Assembly: GCF_039541115.1 (NCBI RefSeq)
Contig: NZ_BAABFP010000002.1
Location: 1 to 64,000, forward strand
Direction: 5' to 3'
From: Angustibacter luteus
GTDB lineage: Bacteria; Actinomycetota; Actinomycetes; Actinomycetales; Angustibacteraceae
DNA length: 64,000 bases
In this document: positions 11,823 through 18,484 of the stretch, piece after piece
Position numbering within the stretch: the stretch's first letter is position 1
Layout of the letters: each line of letters starts with the position of its first letter
Notes under the pieces: generated by a model
Databases searched by the model: none
Told to the model about the DNA's origin: nothing
What the model saw: only the letters and a program-made list of their open reading frames with translations
Program-made: the position numbers and the translations under genes

Positions 11823-13091
11823 GTGAGTGAGCACGCCGAGAACGTGCGCCCGAGCGTCGTCGCGGGCGTCGCCGGCGCGCGCACGAGGCGACGCATCGAG
11901 CAGGGCATGCCGGAGCTGGCCCGGCTCGCGACGTCCCGGATGGAGGCGACCCTCCCCTGGTACCGCGCCCTGTCCGCCCAGGACCGGTCGTGGGTGGGCC
12001 TGGTGGCGCAGGCGGGCGTGGGTGCGTTCCTGGCCTGGTTCCGCCACCCGAGCGGGGTGCTGGAGATCACGGCTGACGTGTTCGGCACGGCACCGCGCGA
12101 GCTGACCCGCGCGATCACGCTGCGCCAGACCCTCGACCTGGTCCGCACGGTGGTGGACGTCGTCGAGGACCAGGTCGACGAGCTGGCCGCGCCGGGCGAG
12201 GAGCAGGCCCTGCGGCTGGCCGTGCTGCGCTACTCCCGCGAGGTCGCCTTCGCGGCCGCCGAGGTCTACGCCCAGGCCGCCGAGTCCCGCGGCGCCTGGG
12301 ACGCCCGGCTCGAGGCCCTGGTGGTCGACGCGGTGCTGCGCGGCGAGGCGGACGACGCCCTGCAGTCGCGCGCCGCGGCGCTCGGCTGGGACGCGCAGAC
12401 GGACGTCGTCGTGGTGGCCGGCGAGGCGGCCTCGGGGTCGGCGGCGGAGGTCGTGGAGTCCCTGCGGCAGCACGCTCGTCGCCTCGGCGTCGACGCGCTG
12501 GCCGCGGTGCAGGGTGGCCGGCTGGTCGCCGTGCTGGGTGGCGTGACGAACCCCCTGGCCACGGCGGACGGTCTCTCGCTCGCGTTCGCCGAGGGGCCGG
12601 TCGTGGTCGGGCCGACGGTGCCGCACCTGTTCGCGGCGGGACGTTCGGCGCGGGCCGCGCTCGCGGGGCTCGTCGCGGCTCGCGCGTGGCCCGAGGCACC
12701 CCGCCCCGTGCTGGCGGACGACCTGCTGCCCGAGCGGGTGCTGGCCGGGGACACCCCCGCCCGGCGCGCGCTGGTCGACCGGGTCTACCGCCGCCTGCAG
12801 GACGCACGCGGGAGCCTGCTCGACACGGTCAGCACGTACCTGGAGTCCGGCGGTTCGCTGGAGGCGTCGGCGCGCATCCTGTTCGTGCACCCCAACACGG
12901 TGCGGTACCGGCTGCGCCGGGCGGCCGAGACCTGCGGGTACGACGTGATGCAGCCCCGGGACGCCCACGTCGTCCGGATGGCGCTGGCGCTGGGCCGGTT
13001 GTCCGGATCGACCCGGCGGCCGCTGCCGCCCGCCGACGCCGACCTCGAACCGGTTGTGGCCCCGACCGGGGCCGCCCGGACCGCTGATTGA
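11823..13091 (+). CDS. fasR: PucR-family transcriptional regulator of fatty acid synthesis, FasR-like
   Basis: This 422-residue regulator has a long N-terminal sensory region (about 1-320) and a C-terminal PucR-type helix-turn-helix (about 330-395) with the typical LFVHPNTVRYRLRR block. FasR of streptomycetes has the same build and the same place immediately before fabD, where it activates the fab operon. The GTG start at 11823 appears leaderless. An imperfect dyad in the fasR-fabD gap is its most likely target. Confidence 0.85.
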   Translation: MSEHAENVRPSVVAGVAGARTRRRIEQGMPELARLATSRMEATLPWYRALSAQDRSWVGLVAQAGVGAFLAWFRHPSGVLEITADVFGTAPRELTRAITLRQTLDLVRTVVDVVEDQVDELAAPGEEQALRLAVLRYSREVAFAAAEVYAQAAESRGAWDARLEALVVDAVLRGEADDALQSRAAALGWDAQTDVVVVAGEAASGSAAEVVESLRQHARRLGVDALAAVQGGRLVAVLGGVTNPLATADGLSLAFAEGPVVVGPTVPHLFAAGRSARAALAGLVAARAWPEAPRPVLADDLLPERVLAGDTPARRALVDRVYRRLQDARGSLLDTVSTYLESGGSLEASARILFVHPNTVRYRLRRAAETCGYDVMQPRDAHVVRMALALGRLSGSTRRPLPPADADLEPVVAPTGAARTAD

Positions 13092-13182: not shown

Positions 13183-14367
13183 GTGCTCGTCATCGCCTGC
13201 CCTGGACAGGGCTCCCAGACCCCCGGCTTCCTGCGCCCCTGGCTCGAGCTGCCGGGCTTCGAGGACCGGTTGAGCTGGCTGTCCGTCGTCGCCGGGATCG
13301 ACCTGGTCAAGCACGGCACCGAGTCGGACGCCGACACCATCCGGGACACGGCCGTGGCGCAGCCGCTGATCGTGGCGAGCGGCCTGGTGTCACTGCTGGC
13401 GCTCTTCCCGCACCCCGCCGAGGCGTTCCGGCAGATCGCCGCCGGTGCAGGGCACAGCGTCGGTGAGATCACGGCCGCCACCGGCGCGGGCGTGCTGACC
13501 GCCGAGCAGGCCATGGTGTTCGTCCGCGAGCGTGGCCGGGCGATGGCCGAGGCCAGCGCAGTGACGGCGACGGGCATGACGGCCGTCCTCGGTGGTGACC
13601 CGGACGAGGTCGCGGCTGCCCTGGCCAAGCACGGCCTGACCGCGGCGAACGCGAACGGTGCGGGGCAGACGGTTGCGGCCGGCACCCTCGAGCAGCTGGC
13701 CGCCCTGAAGGACGTCCCGCCCGCCAAGGCCCGCCTGATGCCCCTGCAGGTCGCCGGGGCCTTCCACACCGAGCACATGCGGCCGGCCGTCGACGTCCTG
13801 TCCGGCTACGCCCGCGCCATCACCACGCACGACCCGCGCACCCGGCTGCTCTCGAACGCCGACGGGCACGTCGTGCACGACGGGCGCGAGGTGCTGCGCC
13901 GGCTGGTCAGCCAGGTCAGCAACCCGGTGCGCTGGGACCTGTGCATGGAGGCCATGCGCGACCTGGGCGTCACCGGCTTCATCGAGATCCCCCCGGCCGG
14001 CGCGCTGACCGGGTTGGTCAAGCGGTCGCTGCCGGACGTCGAGACGCTGGCCCTGAAGACCCCCGACGACCTGGACAAGGCCAAGGAGATGGTGGCCCGG
14101 CACGGCCAGTCCAGCGGCCTGTCGCAGAGCCCGACCTGGCGCCTGGTCGTCGCCCCGCTGAAGGGCATCGTGCACTTCACCGCGCTGGACGCCGGCGCGT
14201 CCGTCGGCGACGGAGACACCATCGCCACCGTGGCCACCCTGCGCGACACCTTCGACGTCGTCGCCCCGCACGGCGGTCGCGTCGTCGAGTGGCTGGTCGA
14301 GGACGGCGACCCCGTCTCGCCCGGTCAGCCCATCGTCCGACTGCACCCGCAGGAGGTACCGGCATGA
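13183..14367 (+). CDS. fabD: Malonyl-CoA:ACP transacylase with C-terminal lipoyl/biotinyl-like domain
   Basis: Residues 1 to about 310 are a normal FabD that moves malonyl from CoA to ACP: the nucleophile is S92 in GHSVGE and the partner histidine H195 in GAFHT. The protein has 394 residues, about 80 more than usual. The extra part (about 325-394) reads like a biotinyl/lipoyl hammerhead domain (VVAPLKGIVHFTAL, then VVAPHGGRVVEWLVEDGD and SPGQPIVRL), but the modified lysine of the E-A-M-K turn is replaced (VATLRDT). It may be a docking or fold remnant. ATGA overlap with fabH. Confidence 0.93.
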   Translation: MLVIACPGQGSQTPGFLRPWLELPGFEDRLSWLSVVAGIDLVKHGTESDADTIRDTAVAQPLIVASGLVSLLALFPHPAEAFRQIAAGAGHSVGEITAATGAGVLTAEQAMVFVRERGRAMAEASAVTATGMTAVLGGDPDEVAAALAKHGLTAANANGAGQTVAAGTLEQLAALKDVPPAKARLMPLQVAGAFHTEHMRPAVDVLSGYARAITTHDPRTRLLSNADGHVVHDGREVLRRLVSQVSNPVRWDLCMEAMRDLGVTGFIEIPPAGALTGLVKRSLPDVETLALKTPDDLDKAKEMVARHGQSSGLSQSPTWRLVVAPLKGIVHFTALDAGASVGDGDTIATVATLRDTFDVVAPHGGRVVEWLVEDGDPVSPGQPIVRLHPQEVPA

Positions 14368-15371
14368 CCGAACGCCCCCAGATCTCGCCGCCCAGCGGCG
14401 CCCCGCACGCCCGGATCTACGGCGTGGGCGGCTACCGGCCCGAGCGGGTCGTGCCCAACTCCGAGCTCGTCGAGCGGATCGACTCGAGCGACCAGTGGAT
14501 CCGGGAGCGCTCCGGCATCGTCTCGCGTCGTTGGGCCGCCGCCGACGAGACCGTGGTGGACATGGCCGAGGCCGCGTGCCGCCAGGCCCTGGACGCCGCG
14601 GGCCTGGACGCCTCGCGCATCGGCGCGGTGCTGGTGGCCACGGTCACCCACCCGTTCCAGACGCCGTCCGCGGCCTCCATGCTGACCCACCGGCTCGGCG
14701 CCACCCCGGCGGCGGCCATGGACATCTCAGCCGCCTGCGCCGGCTTCTGCCACGGCGTCGCGCTGGCCGGCGACATGGTGCGCGGTGGCAGCGCCGAGTA
14801 CGTGCTGGTCGTGGGGGTCGAGAAGCTCTCCGACTTCACCGACCTCAGCGACCGCGGCACCGCCTTCATCTTCGGCGACGGTGCGGGCGCGGTGGTGATC
14901 GGCCCGTCCGACACCCCGGGCATCGGCCCCACCGTCTGGGGCTCGGACGGCGCGCAGTGGGACGCGATCCGCCAGCGCGAGAGCTGGATCGCCGTCCGCG
15001 ACGGCAGCACCGACTGGCCGCACATCACGATGGCCGGCCAGACCGTGTTCCGCTGGGCCGTCTGGCAGATGGCACCCATCGCCCAGCAGGCGCTGGAGAA
15101 GGCCGGCATCAGCGCGGAGCAGCTGGACGCGTTCATCCCGCACCAGGCGAACATGCGGATCATCGACTCGATGATCAAGGCGCTGCGGCTGCCCGAGGGC
15201 ATCCCGGTGGCGCGCGACATCGCCGAGACCGGGAACACCTCCGCCGCCTCGATCCCGCTGGCGATGGAGCGGATGCTCCGCGAGGGTGAGGCGCCGCACG
15301 GCGGCCTGGCCCTGCTCATCGGCTTCGGCGCCGGCCTGTCCTACGCCGCGCAGGTCGTCACCCTCCCCTGA
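14364..15371 (+). CDS. fabH: 3-oxoacyl-ACP synthase III (KAS III)
   Basis: The 335-residue FabH starts fatty acid synthesis by joining an acyl-CoA primer to malonyl-ACP. The catalytic triad is visible: C125 in SAACAGF, H260 in IPHQANMR and N291 in ETGNTSAAS. The ATG overlaps the fabD stop (ATGA). In actinobacteria this enzyme selects branched-chain primers; the primer used here cannot be read from sequence. Confidence 0.96.
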   Translation: MTERPQISPPSGAPHARIYGVGGYRPERVVPNSELVERIDSSDQWIRERSGIVSRRWAAADETVVDMAEAACRQALDAAGLDASRIGAVLVATVTHPFQTPSAASMLTHRLGATPAAAMDISAACAGFCHGVALAGDMVRGGSAEYVLVVGVEKLSDFTDLSDRGTAFIFGDGAGAVVIGPSDTPGIGPTVWGSDGAQWDAIRQRESWIAVRDGSTDWPHITMAGQTVFRWAVWQMAPIAQQALEKAGISAEQLDAFIPHQANMRIIDSMIKALRLPEGIPVARDIAETGNTSAASIPLAMERMLREGEAPHGGLALLIGFGAGLSYAAQVVTLP

Positions 15372-15449: not shown

Positions 15450-15698
15450 ATGGCCAACAGCGAGCAGGAGATCCTCAGCGGTCTCGCCGAGATCGTGAAC
15501 GAGGAGACCGGGCTCCCCACCGACTCCGTCGAGCTGGACAAGAGCTTCACCGACGACCTCGACATCGACTCGCTGTCGATGATGACGATCGTGGTCAACG
15601 CCGAGGAGAAGTTCTCGGTCCGCATCCCCGACGACGACGTGAAGAACCTGTCGACCGTCCGCGACGCCGTCGCGTACATCGCGCAGGCCCAGGGCTGA
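15450..15698 (+). CDS. acpP: Acyl carrier protein
   Basis: The 82-residue acidic carrier protein has the phosphopantetheine attachment serine S41 in the DIDSLS motif. It carries growing acyl chains between FabD, FabH, FabF and the reductases. It lies 78 bases after fabH. A hairpin after its stop may set apart its high expression from that of fabF. Confidence 0.97.
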   Translation: MANSEQEILSGLAEIVNEETGLPTDSVELDKSFTDDLDIDSLSMMTIVVNAEEKFSVRIPDDDVKNLSTVRDAVAYIAQAQG

Positions 15699-15815: not shown

Positions 15816-17069
15816 ATGGCCACGAGCCAGAACCGTCGTGTCGTCGTCACCGGCCTCGGTGCGACGACCCCCCTGGGTGGTGACGTCGCCACGACCTGGC
15901 AGGCCGCCCTTGACGGCACGTCCGGCGCCCGCACCCTGACCCAGGACTGGGTCGCCGAGTTCGACCTGCCGGTCACCTTCGCCGCGTCGGTCGCCGTACA
16001 GCCCATCGACCAGCTGGCGCGGGTCGAGACCCGCCGCCTCGACCCGTCCGGCCAGTTCGCGCTCGTCGCGGCCCGCGAGGCCTGGGCGGACGCCGGATCC
16101 CCCGAGGTCGACGGCGAGCGCCTCGGCGTCGTCGTGGCCAGCGGCATCGGCGGCGTCTGGACCCTCCTGTCGTCGTACGACACCTTGCGCGAGAAGGGGC
16201 CCCGCCGGATCTTCCCGCTGACCGTGCCGATGCTGATGCCGAACGGCCCGGCCGCCGCGGTCAGCCTCGAGCTCGGCGCCCGGGCCGGTGTGCACACCCC
16301 GGTCAGCGCCTGCGCGTCGGGCGCCGAGGCGATCGGGTACGCCGTCGACATGATCCGCACGGGCCGCGCGGACGTCGTCGTCGCGGGCGGCACCGAGGCC
16401 GCGATCCACCCGCTGCCGATCGCCGGGTTCGCGGCGATGCAAGCGCTCTCGACCCGCAACGACGACCCGGCCAAGGCCAGTCGTCCGTATGACCTGAACC
16501 GGGACGGCTTCGTGCTCGGCGAGGGCGCCGGAGTGGTCGTGCTCGAGTCCGAGGAGTACGCCCGCGCCCGCGGCGCCCGGATCTACGCCGAGGTGGCCGG
16601 AGCCGGCCTGACCAGCGACGCCCACCACATCGCCGCACCCGACCCGTCCGGCGCCGGCGCCGCCCGGGCCATGCTCGCGGCCCTCGAGGCCGCGGACGCC
16701 AGCCCCTCGGACGTCGTCCACCTCAACGCGCACGCGACGTCCACGCCGGTGGGCGACACGGCCGAGGCCAACTCGATCCGCGCCGCCCTCGGCAGCGCGA
16801 CCGACCAGGTCTGTGTCTCGGCGACCAAGTCGATGACGGGCCACCTGCTGGGCGCCGCGGGGGCGGTCGAGGGCATCTTCACCATCCTCGCCCTGCACCA
16901 CCGGCTCGCCCCACCGACCATCAACGTCGACGACCTCGACCCCGAGGTCAACCTTGACGTCGTGATCGACAAGCCTCGCCCGCTCGGGGACGGCGACCTG
17001 GTCGCCCTCAACAACTCGTTCGGTTTCGGCGGCCACAACGTGGCCCTGGCCATCCGGAGCGCCTCGTGA
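15816..17069 (+). CDS. fabF: 3-oxoacyl-ACP synthase II (KAS II)
   Basis: The 417-residue condensing enzyme elongates acyl-ACP with malonyl-ACP. C166 in SACASGAEA is the active-site cysteine, and the two histidines lie in LNAHATSTPVGD and KSMTGHLLGAAG, as in KAS I/II enzymes. The C-terminal NNSFGFGGHN is typical. Its TGA overlaps the GTG of accD. The order fabD-fabH-acpP-fabF matches Streptomyces. Confidence 0.96.
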   Translation: MATSQNRRVVVTGLGATTPLGGDVATTWQAALDGTSGARTLTQDWVAEFDLPVTFAASVAVQPIDQLARVETRRLDPSGQFALVAAREAWADAGSPEVDGERLGVVVASGIGGVWTLLSSYDTLREKGPRRIFPLTVPMLMPNGPAAAVSLELGARAGVHTPVSACASGAEAIGYAVDMIRTGRADVVVAGGTEAAIHPLPIAGFAAMQALSTRNDDPAKASRPYDLNRDGFVLGEGAGVVVLESEEYARARGARIYAEVAGAGLTSDAHHIAAPDPSGAGAARAMLAALEAADASPSDVVHLNAHATSTPVGDTAEANSIRAALGSATDQVCVSATKSMTGHLLGAAGAVEGIFTILALHHRLAPPTINVDDLDPEVNLDVVIDKPRPLGDGDLVALNNSFGFGGHNVALAIRSAS

Positions 17070-18484
17070 CCGCCACCCACCCCGGGCAGGACCTCAAGGT
17101 CGAGGTCGACCCCCGCGATCCCGAGCTGCGGCTGGGCATCTTCTTCGACGAGGGCAGTGTCGAGCTGCTGACCGAGCGCGACGACAGCGGCATGCTCGCC
17201 GCGCGCGGCACGGTGAACGGCACCCCCGCGGTGGCCTTCGCCAGTGACGCCACCATCCAGGGCGGCGCGATGGGCGAGGCGGGCTGCAAGGTCTGCCTGG
17301 TGGCCTACGAGCGGGCGCTGGCGGACGGCGTCCCGGTCGTCGGGCTCTGGCACTCCGGCGGTGCACGGCTGCGTGAGGGCGTGGTGTCCCTGCACGCGGT
17401 CGGCGAGGTCTTCGCGATCATGACCCGCGCGTCCGGCAAGATCCCGCAGATCTCCGTGGTGATCGGTGCGGCGGCCGGCGGTGCGGCGTACGGGCCGGCC
17501 CTGACCGACATCGTCATCCTCGGCCCGGACGGGCGCGTCTTCGTCACCGGCCCGGACGTCGTCCGCTCGGTGACCGGCGAGAACGTCGACGCGCTGCGCC
17601 TGGGCGGTCCGGAGCCGCACGGCCGCCGCTCGGGCGTCGTGCACGTCGTCACCGAGACCACTGAGCAGGCGTACGAGCGGGCCCAGCTGATCACCCACCT
17701 GCTCGGCAGCCAGGGGTCGATGGACCTGTCGGCGGTCGACGAGCGGCCCCTCGAGGACCTGCTGCCCGAGTCACACAAGCGCGCCTACGACGTGCACCCG
17801 CTCGTCACCAACCTGCTGGACTCGCCGGAGACCTCGGTCGAGCTCTTCCCCAAGTGGGCGCCGAACATCGTCACCACGCTGGGCCGGCTGGGCGGTCGCA
17901 CCGTCGGCGTCATCGCGAACAACCCGATGCGCCTCGGCGGTTGCCTGGACTCCTCGTCGGCCGAGAAGGCGGCGCGGTTCGTCCGGATGTGCGACGCGTT
18001 CGGCGTCCCGCTGATCGTCGTCGTCGACGTCCCGGGGTACCTACCGGGCGTCGGGCAGGAGTGGGACGGCGTCGTCCGGCGCGGCGCCAAGCTGCTGCAC
18101 GCCTTCGCCGAGGCGGTGGTCCCCCGGGTGACGCTGGTGACCCGCAAGTCCTACGGCGGCGCGTACATCGCCATGAACTCGCGCTCGCTCGGTGCGACCA
18201 AGGTGTTCGCCTGGCCCGGCGCGCAGATCGCCGTGATGGGCGCAGTCGCCGCGGTGCGGATCCTGCACCGCCGCAAGTTGGCGGACGTGGCTGAGGACGC
18301 GCGGGCGGACGTGGAGGCCGAGCTGGCGGCCGAGCACGAGGTCCTCGCCGGCGGCCTGCCGCGCGCGGTCGAGATCGGTGTGGTCGACGAGATCGTCGCG
18401 CCCGTCGACACCCGGGGCGCGCTGGCCCGGGCGATCGATGCCGCGCCGCACGAGCGCGGCCAGCACGGCAACATCCCGCTCTGA
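17066..18484 (+). CDS. Acyl-CoA carboxylase carboxyltransferase subunit
   Basis: The 472-residue crotonase-fold carboxyltransferase moves the carboxyl group from biotin to acetyl- or propionyl-CoA to make malonyl- or methylmalonyl-CoA. Family blocks include AAAGGAAYGPALTD (first oxyanion loop) and VPGYLPGVGQE with KSYGGAYIAMNS in the second half. It has no separate zinc-finger N-terminus, so it is of the AccD/PccB type. Its position after fabF mirrors mycobacterial accD6 after kasB. The GTG overlaps the fabF stop. The biotin-carrier subunit is not in the window. Confidence 0.92.
   Translation: MTATHPGQDLKVEVDPRDPELRLGIFFDEGSVELLTERDDSGMLAARGTVNGTPAVAFASDATIQGGAMGEAGCKVCLVAYERALADGVPVVGLWHSGGARLREGVVSLHAVGEVFAIMTRASGKIPQISVVIGAAAGGAAYGPALTDIVILGPDGRVFVTGPDVVRSVTGENVDALRLGGPEPHGRRSGVVHVVTETTEQAYERAQLITHLLGSQGSMDLSAVDERPLEDLLPESHKRAYDVHPLVTNLLDSPETSVELFPKWAPNIVTTLGRLGGRTVGVIANNPMRLGGCLDSSSAEKAARFVRMCDAFGVPLIVVVDVPGYLPGVGQEWDGVVRRGAKLLHAFAEAVVPRVTLVTRKSYGGAYIAMNSRSLGATKVFAWPGAQIAVMGAVAAVRILHRRKLADVAEDARADVEAELAAEHEVLAGGLPRAVEIGVVDEIVAPVDTRGALARAIDAAPHERGQHGNIPL

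Follow-up and report, generated by a model that had tools for sequence, protein, structure and literature searches.

A lysine-less biotinyl-like domain of FabD in Actinomycetota that tends to be lost together with the carboxyltransferase gene accD

Gene content of the locus

The window (the whole stretch of DNA that was analysed, 64,000 nucleotides of an Angustibacter luteus contig) carries a fab operon in the order pucR-fabD-fabH-acpP-fabF-accD, all genes being on the + strand. The fabD gene (13183..14367) is a single open frame with a GTG start. It encodes a malonyl-CoA:ACP malonyltransferase of 394 aa with a C-terminal biotinyl-like domain. Its stop codon is overlapped by the ATG start of fabH (14364..15371; four bases, ATGA). 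The next genes are acpP (acyl carrier protein; 15450..15698), fabF (ketoacyl-ACP synthase II; 15816..17069) and accD (17066..18484), which overlaps fabF by four bases. The accD product is an AccD6-like carboxyltransferase (PF01039, E 2e-114); its top PDB match is M. tuberculosis AccD6 (4fb8, E 5.3e-190; next kind of match, 1e-118). The first-pass annotation had likewise placed a carboxyltransferase gene in the fabD operon. A PucR-type regulator is encoded upstream of fabD (11823..13091). It corresponds by its place to MabR, which PMC11617747 describes as binding the fas-II promoter of M. tuberculosis.

The catalytic part of FabD (residues 1-300; 13183..14082, + strand) is recognised from Pfam Acyl_transf_1 (PF00698; 63.2 bits, cut-off 32.7) and from its active-site residues. 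S92 (in GHSVGE), R117, H195 and Q9 of the active site are all present. Among solved structures, S. coelicolor FabD (1nm2; E 2.8e-105) is closest, the match extending up to residue 309. Identity over the catalytic part is 60% to 1nm2 and 48% to M. tuberculosis FabD (2qc3). NCBIfam TIGR00128 is not reached (164.7 bits, cut-off 260.9); the mdcH model TIGR03131 scores higher (182.4), yet below its own cut-off. The protein is named an actinobacterial FabD by homology to 1nm2 and not as a TIGR00128 equivalog.

Fold and family of the C-terminal domain

The catalytic part is followed by a linker (residues 301-316; 14083..14130, + strand) that overlaps the stretch of low confidence (residues 312-317) in the AlphaFold2 model of the whole protein (pLDDT 89.5). 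All of the 50 matches listed by Foldseek for this whole model are malonyltransferases or polyketide-synthase acyltransferases, and the domain was therefore modelled separately.

The lysine-less biotinyl-like (pseudo-BCCP) domain spans approximately residues 317-390 (14131..14352, + strand). The FabD C-terminus scores 27.2 bits with Pfam Biotin_lipoyl (PF00364; E 3.6e-6), above the cut-off of 22.1, and the last half of the domain also passes the cut-off of the related family HlyD_3 (26.0, cut-off 22.2). The AlphaFold2 model of the domain alone, built from an alignment of 85 relatives, has a pLDDT of 86.2. Foldseek ranks the E. coli acetyl-CoA carboxylase biotinyl domain (1bdo; E 1.1e-5, rmsd 1.5) first among its PDB matches, and a flattened beta-barrel (hammerhead) fold is predicted accordingly. 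The VIA ranking puts 2ejf_C and 1bdo on top (Z 12.2 each; rmsd 1.2 over 68 residues for 2ejf_C, 2.6 over 73 residues for 1bdo). The profile of the fused domain matches that of nine true BCCP domains in hhalign with an E of 7e-22. The first-pass annotation had read a biotin-carrier hammerhead pattern in the last 70 or so residues and had suggested a fold prediction against BCCP; both the Pfam match and the model bear it out. A lipoyl rather than biotinyl ancestry is disfavoured, as the carrier domains inspected among the profile matches are mostly BCCPs with MKM, the top structural matches are biotinyl and lipoyl domains come lower; this is a leaning and not a proof.

Loss of the biotinylated lysine and conservation of the domain

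On alignment to the MKM hairpin of biotin carriers, the biotinylated M-K-M is replaced in the window protein by L353-R354-D355 (14239..14247, + strand). Among 129 distinct domain-bearing FabDs (identical copies removed), the biotin-lysine position is occupied by R in 121 and by Q in four, while S, G, D and A each occur once. It is never occupied by K, so that the loss of the E-A-M-K site, noticed earlier in the window protein, holds for the whole set. In 11/129 there is a lysine at some other place of the hairpin or next to it, immediately before the arginine in two of them, and the next position is D or E in 119/129.

R320, G328, G365 and E369 are invariant in the same 129 proteins. In a wider set, E369 is found in 133/133, G365 in 131/133 and R320 in 127/133, and W370 and R386 are nearly invariant. 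Over 19 close pairs (one more pair was skipped, one of its rows having gone as a duplicate), the domain has a median dN/dS of 0.12, compared with 0.13 in the 16-residue linker and 0.10 in the catalytic part. With such a value the domain is not decayed. As neither the fused nor the stand-alone form (see below) has a modifiable lysine, the domain is not classed as a carrier.

Distribution among Actinomycetota

A FabD match at E <= 1e-10 is found in 275/296 genomes of the class. Among those listed, the match covers the full length in many families and breaks off near residue 310 in others; conservation in relatives, on which the first-pass annotation had made its reading depend, thus extends across many families. 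When named genomes were scanned with the domain profile, 367 relatives came up; the named organisms among the best 80 include Knoellia, Janibacter, Jiangella, Phytoactinopolyspora, Kribbella, Nocardioides, Actinopolymorpha, Pseudokineococcus and one Streptomyces. Searches with an alignment spanned Actinomycetota, and other phyla were covered through the best 80 of the named-genome scan. The domain is absent from the solved FabDs of S. coelicolor (1nm2, 317 residues) and M. tuberculosis (2qc3, 303 residues). A literature search found the FabD domain described nowhere in the titles and abstract beginnings of the matches listed.

Seven genomes of one genus (G026, G104, G115, G228, G246, G255 and G271; f33/g39), 99-100% complete, have no FabD match at E <= 1e-10; they perhaps represent a FAS-I lineage. 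Another genome (G941) encodes two domain-bearing FabDs, on contigs C22 and C73.

A stand-alone form encoded behind fabD

The search of the phylum (396 genomes) with the domain profile returned mostly ordinary BCCPs, the carrier domains that were inspected being mostly BCCPs with MKM, and in addition small lysine-less proteins encoded beside fabD. The module also exists, therefore, as a separate gene behind fabD in other lineages, which lay beyond the sight of the first-pass annotation. In 8/12 closely inspected cases, the gene has an in-frame start codon that overlaps the fabD stop by four bases. A profile of these 12 proteins matches 37 of the 396 genomes at E <= 1.6e-14, outside those with the fused form; the locus counts that follow refer to the 30 loci that were fetched. 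In 30/30 the first gene found after fabD is the small one, and fabH comes after it in 28/30, the remaining two loci stopping there. Longer loci have the order fabD-X-fabH-fabG-acpP-fabF, where X is the small gene.

K is present at the modified site in 0/35 distinct stand-alone proteins and within two residues of it in 3/35. Nine of the proteins were scanned against domain models: Biotin_lipoyl passes its cut-off in six and HlyD_3 in one, and no NCBIfam model scores above cut-off in these nine. The fab operon thus holds a small, conserved gene for which Pfam and NCBIfam give generic matches only.

In profile comparisons, the fused domain matches the stand-alone form with an E of 5e-20 and true BCCPs with an E of 7e-22; the stand-alone form matches true BCCPs with an E of 4e-17. 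The fused profile being no nearer to the stand-alone proteins than to BCCPs, it is the gene position and the lack of the lysine that argue for common descent of the two forms. The FabD tail would be the small subunit in fused form.

An AccD ortholog was found in 0/29 searched genomes among the 37 with the stand-alone gene (best matches 35-51%, one genome without match), and accD lies 3' of fabF in only 3/13 stand-alone loci that are long enough. As these genomes have no AccD ortholog, the ancestral partner may differ from AccD. Candidates are a FAS component or a carboxylase part other than AccD, and the link to AccD would then be special to the fused form. In three stand-alone loci (L262, L263, L266), the gene after fabF encodes a carboxyltransferase with 38-40% identity to the window AccD.

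Joint presence and loss of the domain and accD

The domain was called from HMM matches within 600 bases of fabD and accD from a 1.5 kb window behind fabF. Among 223 complete loci, 127 have the domain and an adjacent accD, 62 have neither, 15 have accD only, seven have the domain only and 12 are undetermined; five refetched loci were dropped from this set, some places are counted twice under different loci, and rows are non-independent. The Fisher p for the association is 1e-30, which leaves kinship uncontrolled and is not taken as proof. Some genomes of the relatives are incomplete, and the trees are quick ones (FastTree for the test on R354 given below).

A first test with independent pairs (FabD tree of 126 rows, ten domain changes) gave 3.4 pairs in the same direction and 0.5 in the other out of seven (median p 0.25). 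Since it was not significant, families mixed for the domain were sampled in a targeted way. The 60 targeted loci come from two families and from a further, partly overlapping set of mixed genera (f33, f4, f45); families and genera were picked for their mixed domain state, without prior knowledge of accD in the loci added. Domain and accD are both present in 27 of these loci and both absent in 31; two loci have the domain only and none has accD only (58/60 concordant). On the larger FabD tree (184 rows, two long ones omitted), the domain state changes 23 times. Over 11 independent pairs on supported branches, accD differs in the same way in 7.0, in the opposite way in 0.5 and not at all in 3.5 (median p 0.039, range 0.008-0.29).

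Eleven genera contain both domain states, and accD tracks the domain in every row in nine of them. In g417, one of two domain-bearing rows has no accD; in g413, accD is missing in both states. Thirteen domain-less FabDs have a domain-bearing FabD as nearest row, and 12 of them are without accD. The exception, L293, retains accD; for L334, the nearest domain-bearing neighbour is also without accD. The C-terminal tail of the domain-bearing L342 is for the most part retained (DATEVTR / DATEATR) in two domain-less FabDs of the same genus (L343 and L344; f45, g429), which indicates that the domain was excised in place.

Whole genomes were checked in 57 cases (30/31 domain-less and 24/29 domain-bearing targeted genomes, G045, G263 and the window genome). 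An AccD ortholog is found in 23/25 domain-bearing genomes (68-81% identity, 100% in the window genome) and in 0/32 domain-less genomes searched whole (best match 35-48%). AccA, the biotin-carboxylase subunit (BC-BCCP), is retained in 57/57 of the same genomes. All 60 targeted loci have acpP and fabF, and all but L328, L333 and L334 have fabH. With AccA, acpP and fabF kept and fabH mostly so, the loss singles out AccD from the genes examined. Conversely, accD is found without the domain in 15/77 determined domain-less loci. These fall in eight families (f10, f19, f20 with one genome, f23, f24, f29, f32 and f38), so AccD does not depend on the domain.

Among 85 domain positions scanned, position 354 contrasts most with accD (0.81), H388 being close (0.78). 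R354 is present in 120/126 domains with accD and in 1/7 domains without adjacent accD. For two of the six R354-less domain-bearing FabDs without adjacent accD (G939, G961), the AccD ortholog is absent from the genome. With independent pairs, R354 varies in the same direction in 4.8 and in the opposite direction in 0 out of six (median p 0.0625). Small as these numbers are, they fit an order of events in which AccD is lost first and the domain decays after. Six domains have accD yet no R354: L330 (f45/g420), L291, L292, L294 and L157 (all f20) and L205 (f39). Much of the middle of the domain is missing in L294.

On the side of AccD, the most contrasting of 472 columns is R178 (window 17597-17599), located before an LGG motif that presumably has an oxyanion-hole role. 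It is R in 124/126 AccDs of domain-bearing operons and in 1/15 of domain-less ones; this contrast is post hoc, with two informative independent pairs, and counts as no more than a lead. Both groups have the N-terminal 40 residues of AccD.

Proposed role and alternative explanations

It is on balance probable, by a narrow judgement, that the FabD tail is an unmodified BCCP mimic that ties FabD to the carboxylase containing the operon-encoded, AccD6-type AccD. The basis is the fold, the missing lysine, purifying selection, the like stand-alone gene and the repeated joint loss with AccD. Since the domain tends to vanish together with the AccD gene, it is a probable link between the enzyme that makes malonyl-CoA and the one that uses it. 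In the simplest model, the tail would dock FabD onto this acetyl-CoA carboxylase, the likeliest site being the AccD surface that is visited by the true biotin carrier, or its vicinity, and arginine 354 would occupy the place of the biotin-lysine in the docked domain. Malonyl-CoA would then be released beside its consumer FabD; alternatively, assembly of the carboxylase would be tied to FabD. We infer physical binding of the domain to AccD, the binding site and an effect on flux. The first-pass annotation had proposed that the domain could bind carboxylase parts and pass malonyl-CoA directly; the repeated joint loss and the R354 contrast speak for AccD as such a part, binding itself and direct passing being conjectural steps.

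The domain could instead serve inside FAS-II, as a scaffold that binds ACP and FabH or as a stabiliser of FabD, the link to AccD being a by-product of operon remodelling. This is unlikely: the stand-alone form does lie between fabD and fabH in genomes without an AccD ortholog, and AccD also occurs without the domain, but the domain is lost along with AccD while fabH, acpP and fabF generally remain, and R354 varies with the presence of AccD. A regulator resembling plant BADC, in which the domain would compete with the genuine BCCP of AccA and so hold back the carboxylase when FabD is free, is a distinctly doubtful alternative. The FabD domain is of the same fold class and without the lysine, and BADC proteins are described as inhibitors or assembly glue in PMC11926652 and PMC7712654; however, AccA is retained upon loss of the domain, which points to AccD as partner rather than BC, the partner of BADC.

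The joint losses might also reflect horizontal replacement by whole fab operons devoid of both domain and accD. A mixed multi-family cluster on the FabD tree, domain-less and accD-less in 15/16 rows, has this appearance, but the 13 domain-less FabDs nearest to domain-bearing rows (12 without accD) do not, and the tail that L343 and L344 share with L342 points to removal in place; replacement is very improbable. That the domain is a functionless remnant of a carrier domain, the other possibility named in the first-pass annotation, is hardly credible. The modified lysine is gone, the domain state changes 23 times on the tree of 184 rows, and the dN/dS of the linker about equals that of the domain. 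Against this, the dN/dS of the domain is far below 1 and close to that of the catalytic part, E369 never varies, W370, R386 and G365 hardly do, and the domain is retained over many families.

The preferred reading, a BCCP mimic that ties FabD to the AccD-containing carboxylase, can be carried further to an ancient undescribed subunit, free in some lineages and fused to FabD in others, that plugs FabD into AccD and has arginine in the place of the biotin-lysine, malonyl-CoA being passed from AccD to FabD within the complex. This extended version is rather unlikely as a whole. As a candidate physical link between malonyl-CoA production and its use in bacteria, the domain offers named partners, one mutable residue (R354), genera that include natural knock-outs, and a relative that exists on its own.

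Comparison with known systems

The domain shares its fold and profile similarity with the biotinyl domain of BCCP (1bdo; C-terminus of AccA). It differs from BCCP by the replacement of the lysine, mostly by arginine, and by its own motifs TWR, VEW and RLHP. The FabDs of S. coelicolor (1nm2) and M. tuberculosis (2qc3) share the catalytic part but end without the C-terminal domain. M. tuberculosis AccD6 (4fb8) is the best solved relative of the operon AccD, and accD6 is within the fabD operon in that species too, according to PMC11617747. M. tuberculosis FabD nevertheless has no pseudo-BCCP domain.

Among known systems, plant BADC proteins come closest; PMC11926652 and PMC7712654 describe them as BCCP-like proteins without the biotinylated lysine (AMKL motif) and as inhibitors or assembly glue of plastid acetyl-CoA carboxylase. 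The definition given in PMC11926652, BCCP-like without the biotinylation motif, also describes both the fused and the stand-alone forms reported here. The likeness is drawn from descriptions, and membership in the BADC family is not claimed. Plant BADC and the FabD domain are both BCCP-like, lysine-less and attached to fatty-acid synthesis; according to PMC11926652 and PMC7712654, BADC proteins are non-catalytic subunits of their own, with BCCP and BC as interaction partners. The FabD domain, unlike plant BADC, is bacterial, is fused to FabD or encoded beside it, and is linked by co-loss to the carboxyltransferase AccD.
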